NCBI GenBank assembly: GCA_021527695.1
Contig: JAKFAO010000003.1
Location: forward strand, 1,178,001 to 1,242,000
DNA: 64,000 bases
From: Naematelia aurantialba
Taxonomy: Eukaryota > Basidiomycota > Tremellomycetes > Tremellales > Naemateliaceae
Direction: 5' to 3'
Numbering within the stretch: the first letter of the stretch is position 1; every line of letters starts with the position of its first letter. The notes beneath the pieces are model-generated. The model was not told the origin of the DNA and made no database searches. It was given only the letters and a program-made list of their open reading frames with translations. Positions 57,292 through 59,524 of this stretch are shown here, one piece after another. A program made the translations under genes and the position numbers.

Positions 57292-58653
57292 TTAGACCAT
57301 CTGGTGGACGAGCTTGGACATGTGCTTCTCCCTGTCTCCAGTGTCACCACCCTCGACGAAAGTGATGAACTTCCTGGGCCTCCAGCCGCCAGTGGGGTTG
57401 GACAGCTTGAATGGCCAGAGAGCCGAAGTGGCCTGCTTGAAGTTGGGGCCGCAGGTGGCGATCTCGTGGACCAGGTCCTCAACGCCTGACGGAATGAATC
57501 AGCCATGGCACTCGGGCAAAGGCAGGAATGGGGACTCACAGATGATACCGAATTTGCCGAGTTGCTTCTCGATGATCTGGTTGTCGGTGATGGGGATGCG
57601 CTGGCCGTTGACCTTGGCGTATCCGCGCTTGTAGATGAGCTCGCGGATGGCCTTGAGGTTGACCTCGCCGTAGGTGATGTATGGTGCGACAAGGTGGAGC
57701 ATCTGCTGAGTCGCCTTGGTGACTCGGACAAAGACACCGTTGTTGATCTGGAGGAGTCGGAGGAGCTGCAGGATCTTCTTGGGCTTGGGGGCGATCTTGG
57801 ATATACTGCGAAGTATCAGCCCCTGCGGCTTTTTCGCTTCCAACCGGAACGGTAAAACACGATAACGAGTGGTCAAGGGAGGAGTGAAGACGTCAGTGGC
57901 TAAGAAAAGAAGCTCACCCCTTGATGCGGACGACAAAGAAGACTTTGGGTTGAGCGGAGACGTAAAAGTCTCCAGTCTTCCTCGCCTCTCGCTTGAGCCG
58001 GACCTCCTCCTTCTCGGCAGCGACGTATTCCTTCACGTACTCGTCGGCCCGCTTGAAGATGACTTTACGCTGGGCTTGTCGGTGCTATCGCTCTGTCAGC
58101 GACTACCCTCGCGCAGTGCAGAGAGTCAAGATGATGAAGTAGATTGCGAAGATTCAGCCCCGAAAGATGGTTAATTACAGGCAGCATCGCCGTTTGGCTA
58201 GCCGTGATCCGCGACAGCGGTGTTGTACATCATGATGAATGTGGAGTAGTGATGTGCAGCCCCGTCCCTTCAACGAACGTCCATCCTGATTCGATCCCTC
58301 GGGTTCTAGACACCGCCGCAGACTGTCTCTCGTCCAGCTCGTGCTCCCCAGGTCGCACCACACTTCGTCCGTGAAAGGGAGAATTCCAAATTTGCAAGAT
58401 GCAGTGGATAAACTCACCTTCCTTGCCTCGGCAGCAGCGGCAAGCTTGGCCTCACGAGTCGCCTCGTTGGTTCGGCGCTTCTTGAGCAGAGTCTCGGGGA
58501 CGGCGACCTGCTATGGGGGGTGTCAGTATCCTGATGACATCCTGAGTGTCTGTCTCCTTCAACGAACCTCGGCAGTGGGCACACTAGGTAGGGCGTCAGC
58601 AGTGTTACAGCTAGTTGCCTGTGACTCGAACACATACCTGGTAGAAGGCGCCA
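57292..58653 (-). CDS. RPL7: 60S ribosomal protein L7 (uL30)
   Basis: This is a structural protein of the large ribosomal subunit. Six exons: 58653-58637, 58583-58568, 58507-58418, 58084-57918, 57805-57540 and 57485-57292 (249 residues; yeast L7 is 244). Recognisable segments are the basic N terminus ([40 protein letters not shown]), [80 protein letters not shown] and [20 protein letters not shown]. The first two exons are tiny (17 and 16 nt). The third intron (58085-58417, 333 nt) is far longer than the others and carries a C/D snoRNA candidate. The gene diverges from RPP1. Confidence 0.97.
58148..58238 (-). ncRNA. C/D-box snoRNA candidate in RPL7 intron (snR39b/snR39-like)
   Basis: This lies in the 333-nt third intron of RPL7, sense to the host. 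Box C is ATGATGT (plus 58227-58233; one mismatch to RTGATGA). Box D is CTGA (plus 58154-58157). Directly upstream of box D the guide reads AACCATCTTTCGGGG. Thirteen consecutive bases of it are complementary to the conserved 25S rRNA segment CCCGAAAGATGGT. Counting five bases up from box D places the methylation on the G of CCCG, equivalent to yeast Gm805 (snR39b target), two bases from Am807 (snR39/snR59 target). In yeast, snR39 and snR59 themselves sit in RPL7A and RPL7B introns. rRNA sequence and yeast host genes are recalled knowledge. C'/D' boxes and a terminal stem are not clear. Confidence 0.72.
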
Positions 58654-58982
58654 TTTTGATCGAGCGAGACTTGATGGATGAGAGAGAAGAGAAGACTTGG
58701 AGAGAAGGATTTTGTCGACCGAGCAGCAGCAACGCTGGGGAGCGAGAGCGCTGGGTCGGGGGGAGCCCAATTTCGAGACAGTCGAAATTGCCGACAAACG
58801 CCGCGAGTCTGGCGCAGTTGCAGCGTTTTGGCTTGTGATAATAAAGCCACGTCATGGTTCCGCCACATTTGGGTTTCTCGAAACTGTCTCCGTGCCAGCA
58901 GCATGCCATTTCCTTGCAACTTGTCCAACCTTCATCGTCAGAAAGCGTAGTCCGCCTTTGGCTTAAATTGATTACCTTCACG
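58654..58982. promoter_or_regulatory. Bidirectional promoter RPL7 / RPP1
   Basis: 329 bp between the divergent start codons of two ribosomal protein genes, an arrangement that favours co-regulation. A CRE-like CCACGTCATGG lies at about 58846-58856, and an inverted pair TTTCGAGACAGTCGAAA at about 58773-58789. Binding factors are not known from the sequence. Confidence 0.65.
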
Positions 58983-59524
58983 ATGGTAAGTTGGCCTCTT
59001 GATGTAGGGGCGCCATAGCTGACAACGCCAGTCCAACGAACTCGCTGCTACCTACGCCGCCCTCATCCTCGCCGACGAGGGGATTGAGATCACCGTCAGT
59101 CTCTCTCTGTCTTTGCTTTCCTTCTCTCTCGTCTCATACGGGGACTGCGTCTACACTTAGCTGTATCGTATAAAGTAAAGCTGACATTGCACAGGGCGAG
59201 AAGATCCACTCCCTCACCTCCAAGGCCAACGTCGAGCTTGAGCCCATCTGGGCATCTCTCCTCGCCAAGGCCCTCGACGGCAAGGACGTCAAGGCCCTGC
59301 TGACCAACGTTGGTGGTGGCGGCGCCCCCGCTGCCGGTGCACCTGCTGCTGCTGCCGCCGCCGGTGGTGACGCCTCTGCCCCTGCCGCCGCCGCCGAGGA
59401 GGAGAAGAAGGAGGAGGCCAAGGAGGAGTCTGACGACGACATGGTGAGTCTTTCGACAGGCTTCGTCAGTCCAAAACGTGTGGTAGGCTGACCGGACTCT
59501 TAGGGCTTCGGTCTGTTCGACTAA
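58983..59524 (+). CDS. RPP1: 60S acidic ribosomal stalk protein P1
   Basis: This is a component of the ribosomal P-stalk that recruits and activates translation GTPases. Four exons: 58983-58985 (only the ATG), 59032-59094, 59195-59443 and 59504-59524 (111 residues, usual length). N-terminal dimerisation part: [40 protein letters not shown]. Then come an Ala/Gly hinge and the acidic C terminus ESDDDMGFGLFD, which matches the universal P-protein peptide. The last intron splits this terminal peptide between DDDM and GFGLFD. Splitting the start codon from the rest by an intron is common in fungal ribosomal protein genes. Confidence 0.97.

Follow-up and report, generated by a model that had tools for sequence, protein, structure and literature searches.

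Box C/D RNAs of fungal RPL7 introns

In yeast, A807 is guided by snR39 and snR59, which occupy the second introns of RPL7A and RPL7B (PMC5295604); the preliminary description of this locus had likewise placed both RNAs in RPL7A/RPL7B introns and credited them with Am807. The published modification sites assign Am807 to snR39 and snR59 and Gm805 to snR39b. The intron position in RPL7 is conserved in 82% of fungi; all eight intron-poor species surveyed, among them Ustilago, Pseudozyma, Malassezia, and Meira, retain it, and in these the intron encodes a box C/D snoRNA (PMC8476143). Taxonomic lookup places Malassezia and Meira in the Basidiomycota. Ustilago and Pseudozyma are also Basidiomycota.

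For Neurospora, four box C/D RNAs are named as already present in Rfam (snR39, snR52, snR60, and snR61), and Table 1 of the same paper has four starred box C/D rows with the yeast homologs snR61, snR52, snR39b, and snR60 (PMC2780460). Setting the four names against the homologs of the four rows, we infer that the starred gene CD47 probably corresponds to the Neurospora snR39 of Rfam. CD47 is listed with 26S-Gm785 as its target and a 16-bp box D guide, and Am787 is absent from that table; according to the legend, starred genes are database-annotated and not detected experimentally, and the CD47 row reads N, R (PMC2780460). Deletion of the debranching enzyme gene in Fusarium lowers intronic snR39 while the host lariat accumulates (PMC9606315), which supports release of the snoRNA from the lariat. 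Fungi can lack the RNA, since neither snR39 nor snR59 turned up in three species of the Candida group (PMC5033589). Chicken has separate RNAs for the neighboring G and A sites (PMC2653536).

The RPL7 gene and its third intron

The window (the whole stretch of 64,000 nucleotides that was analyzed) contains an RPL7 gene, whose features are collected in Table 1. The product is 90% identical over 100% of its length to the best of the 120 relatives listed, that of Kwoniella sp. CBS 6097; Kwoniella is a tremellomycete (taxonomy looked up), and the host genome is, to judge from sequence, that of a tremellomycete-like fungus. A protein search of the 21-Mb genome (15 contigs) returned four matches, each of which falls within this one locus. 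The introns measure, in order, 54, 57, 333, 112, and 54 nt; the third is therefore an outlier, in agreement with the preliminary description, which had named the long third intron as the host. Splice sites were placed from the sequence, a few junction choices being equivalent, and intron 3 presumably sits at the same position as the yeast RPL7 intron. Upstream, 328 bases (58655-58982) separate the RPL7 start codon from that of a divergent gene, which resembles acidic ribosomal protein P1; its first intron seems to follow directly after the ATG at 58983-58985.

Table 1. Features of the RPL7 locus and of the predicted RNA in intron 3 (window positions)
Feature	Position	Strand	Description
RPL7 (uL30) coding region	57292..58654	minus	Six exons, 250 aa plus stop; open frame and homology
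Third RPL7 intron	58085..58417	minus	GTGAGT...GATAG, 333 nt, after codons EARK; splice sites placed from sequence
Branch-like GCTGAC in intron 3	58100-58095	minus	From sequence
Predicted box C/D snoRNA	58149..58238	minus	Box C to box D plus 5 nt on either side; ends arbitrary
Box C	58227..58233	minus	ATGATGT, 6/7 to RUGAUGA; from sequence
Candidate box D'	58198..58201	minus	CTAG, start of the CUAGC common to the Rfam snR39 consensus; box name putative
Candidate box C'	58184..58190	minus	GCGATGC, 5/7; box name putative
Guide	58159..58171	minus	ACCATCTTTCGGG, 13 nt; 13 bp with 25S CCCGAAAGAUGGU, -24.5 kcal/mol
Spacer	58158	minus	G, single base between guide and box D; from sequence
Box D	58154..58157	minus	CTGA, agrees with consensus; from sequence

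Boxes C (ATGATGT) and D (CTGA), which had been described within 58148-58238, are both present there, as is the 13-base guide with one unpaired base before box D. The span from box C to box D, both included, is 80 nt. An overlapping ATCATGA likewise agrees with the box C consensus at six of seven positions, giving two possible readings of box C; variants of this 6/7 kind occur in known snoRNAs. In this class the guide is a stretch of about 10-21 nt, complementary to rRNA, that sits immediately before box D or D'; here 13 bp are followed by one spacer base. A terminal stem is lacking: flanks of 12 by 12 bases give +1.5 kcal/mol, and whole-intron flanks give -45.2 against a shuffle mean of -43.7, with 109 of 300 shuffles equally strong. 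Because many intronic C/D RNAs have no terminal stem, we did not treat this as excluding a C/D snoRNA. The 131-nt region around the snoRNA has no unusual fold either (z = 0.00; 96 of 200 shuffles fold as well).

The preliminary description had proposed an Rfam search of the intron. In such a search RF01197 (snR39) is the sole match at E values up to 10. It scores 24.8 bits, below the gathering cutoff of 40 bits; with the 333 bases searched against 4227 families, E is 0.024, and in 4 kb it is 0.29. Model positions 42-93 of 95 align, covering CUAGC, an AUG core, the guide, and box D; positions 1-41 have no alignment with the intron. Box C begins 32 nt ahead of CUAGC and would fit into the length of those 41 positions, though they are unaligned. 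No Rfam family reached its gathering cutoff anywhere in the window, and RF01197 found nothing genome-wide at E = 0.001. The RNA is thus a probable relative of RF01197, not a formal member.

Predicted rRNA target and uniqueness of the guide

The fifth base upstream of CTGA is a C, facing the G of CCCG in 25S under the D+5 rule. The 25S letters CCCGAAAGAUGGU are those we take to be conserved, the segment CCCGAAAGATGGT is presumed for this fungus, and the yeast coordinates of the segment, likewise assumed, put the predicted nucleotide at the equivalent of yeast G805. Such a placement agrees with the published Gm805 (snR39b) and Am807 (snR39 and snR59). The D+5 nucleotide is thus predicted to be that of snR39b and not the A807 of snR39 and snR59. 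Applied to the RF01197 consensus UUUCGGGGCUGA, the D+5 rule likewise points at G and not at A807.

The fungus's own rDNA was not found in the assembly by a 20-base pattern, a 172-base probe, or a 5.8S family search, the last of which gave matches in 9 of 14 (prokaryote) control genomes; the three empty searches indicate that rDNA is probably absent from the assembly. The exact pattern CATCTTTCGNNTGA for a separate A807 guide had no match genome-wide (three for the backward control). With up to two mismatches allowed, CACCATCTTTCGNNTGA occurs at 44 places, each of them carrying two mismatches, and its backward control at 28; 12 of the 30 places scanned have a box C of at least 6/7 within 110 nt upstream. 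Close reading of four of these 12 with their surroundings gave no convincing guide. One of the four, in L040 (about 1465-1600 of the reverse complement), is a weak candidate, with box C ATGATGA, a near A807-type guide, and CTGA downstream; box C is complete, but the guide has one mismatch and D' is poor. These pattern searches, with 30 of the 44 places scanned, suggest that a separate A807 guide is absent from the genome.

Among four window matches to ACCATCTTTCGGG with at most two mismatches, the intron 3 guide is the sole exact one; the 18-base guide plus box D matches seven genome places at the same tolerance (backward control, four), and only RPL7 intron 3 is exact. CCATCTTTCG followed by 0-4 bases and NTGA occurs at nine genome places (backward-pattern control, three), of which intron 3 is the one with GGG and CTGA; no box C of at least 6/7 lies within 110 nt upstream of the seven others covered (eight of the nine places, including the RPL7 intron). 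By our arithmetic, a single strand of 333 nt should by chance hold about 1e-4 occurrences of a 13-nt complement to any of about 5.2 kb of rRNA together with the spacer and CTGA, and about 3e-7 when the 27-nt rRNA segment alone is considered. A second copy of the 201-base snoRNA region was not found in the genome.

Three genome places (in L003 and L006, and G000:C12:1149887-1149904) share CCATCTTTCGAGACATGA, and around it L003 and L006 have 228 identical bases, resembling a dispersed repeat. The 18-base guide plus box D had no match in viral contigs, RPL7 searches of 84 genome-contig and 13 viral-contig stretches confirmed no relative, and an 18S pattern search found nothing. One IMG/VR contig, apparently a chimeric assembly, holds near one end a short eukaryote-like 25S piece containing GACCCGAAAGATGGTGAACTATGC (L002:3333-3356); it has no Rfam match at the gathering cutoff.

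Weighing the readings and comparison with known systems

Intron 3 of RPL7 is in all likelihood the source of a box C/D snoRNA akin to the snR39 group of fungi, with the G805 equivalent as its predicted target. Supporting this reading are the boxes, their spacing, and the guide; the sole Rfam match, to snR39; the unique combination of guide and box D; the intron position and C/D content common to RPL7 across fungi; the predicted Gm assignments of CD47 and of TRnc_2265 from Trichophyton; and the drop of Fusarium snR39 on deletion of the debranching enzyme gene. Against it stand the sub-cutoff Rfam score, the unaligned model positions 1-41, the missing terminal stem, the imperfect box C, the empty genome-wide RF01197 search, the failure to find rDNA in the assembly from which the target could be read, and that to find snR39 or snR59 in three Candida-group species. 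The sequence elements, host gene, uniqueness, and partial family likeness were obtained directly. A real snoRNA might instead methylate the A807 equivalent, as yeast snR39 and snR59 do, or both G805 and A807: the host gene is that of the two yeast A807 guides, and there are C/D RNAs whose unusual C'/D' motifs allow modification at more than one site within a target region. We regard this as improbable, since box D is a plain CTGA with a C facing G at the fifth base, there is no D-like box two bases nearer the guide, and Neurospora CD47 is listed with a G target alone (PMC2780460).

The imperfect box C, the missing stem, and the first 41 unaligned model positions would also fit a decayed copy in which guide and box D persist and the RNA is no longer made. 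Both of these elements are perfect, and neither a second exact guide with box D nor a second RPL7 locus was found in the genome to take over, which leaves decay highly improbable. Least probable of all, and barely credible, is a chance match of the intron to rRNA: the motifs are short and the region folds no better than shuffles, but the single exact guide with box D in 21 Mb falls in the very gene known to harbor such an RNA in fungi, and snR39 is the only Rfam match of the intron.

Under the snoRNA reading with the G805 target, expression, processing, and methylation are what we infer from these elements. Most likely the RNA would be freed from the spliced intron by lariat debranching and trimming, and would then assemble with the standard C/D proteins, which for a stable RNA of this class are fibrillarin, Nop56, Nop58, and Snu13. 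It would pair with 13 nt of 25S pre-rRNA adjoining box D, and 2'-O-methylation would be directed to the nucleotide opposite the D+5 base of the guide, the predicted equivalent of yeast G805. The third intron very probably carries a small guide RNA marking one rRNA spot.

More speculatively, and with considerable doubt, fungi may originally have used the RPL7-intron snoRNA to guide G805; a move of box D by two bases toward the guide in the Saccharomyces line would then have redirected this RNA to A807, with G805 left to a separate snR39b. On this view the present fungus would have no G805 guide other than the RPL7 RNA, and no classical guide for A807. We found no statement of such a two-base shift as a switch from G805 to A807 in the literature searched, in which subscription papers were mostly beyond reach.

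Novelty is small: C/D RNAs have been published from RPL7 introns of basidiomycetes, and a G target has already been predicted for RNAs of the snR39 type; with such RNAs already known in other fungi, basidiomycetes included (PMC8476143), the find is sound but ordinary. What it adds is a tremellomycete to a known case of conservation of host gene and guide. In compact form it also illustrates how the choice of the rRNA nucleotide to be marked would hinge on two bases between guide and box D, so that a target switch between fungi becomes testable; the known picture is unchanged.

Compared with described systems, the RNA shares host gene RPL7 and class C/D with those of the eight intron-poor fungi (PMC8476143). 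With S. cerevisiae snR39 and snR59 it has in common the RPL7 intron and the 25S neighborhood, whereas their published target is Am807 and Gm805 is predicted here. S. cerevisiae snR39b targets Gm805, the nucleotide predicted here, but its listed location class is M, where intronic RNAs have I, and so it is apparently not intronic. Neurospora crassa CD47, grouped with the snR39b homologs, resembles the present RNA in being intronic, of the C/D class, guided from box D, and assigned a Gm target; it differs in its match (16 bp versus 13 bp) and length (75 nt versus about 90 nt) (PMC2780460). Trichophyton rubrum TRnc_2265 is also intronic, assigned to RF01197 snR39, with a 25S Gm target predicted by Snoscan; it is listed as Gm808 in the numbering as published, and its row gives no host gene (PMC3890542). 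Reports of snR39-type RNAs whose predicted target is a G therefore exist for two filamentous ascomycetes, with an RPL7 host shown for neither. The prediction of the snR39b nucleotide, Gm805, is supported, while the surprise that the preliminary description implied is weakened by the published RPL7-intron C/D RNAs of basidiomycetes and by these earlier G predictions for CD47 and the Trichophyton RF01197 RNA. The broader proposal of that description, that host gene and target region are common to ascomycetes and a basidiomycete, agrees with the anatomy of the locus, the sub-cutoff snR39 match, and the literature on hosts and targets.
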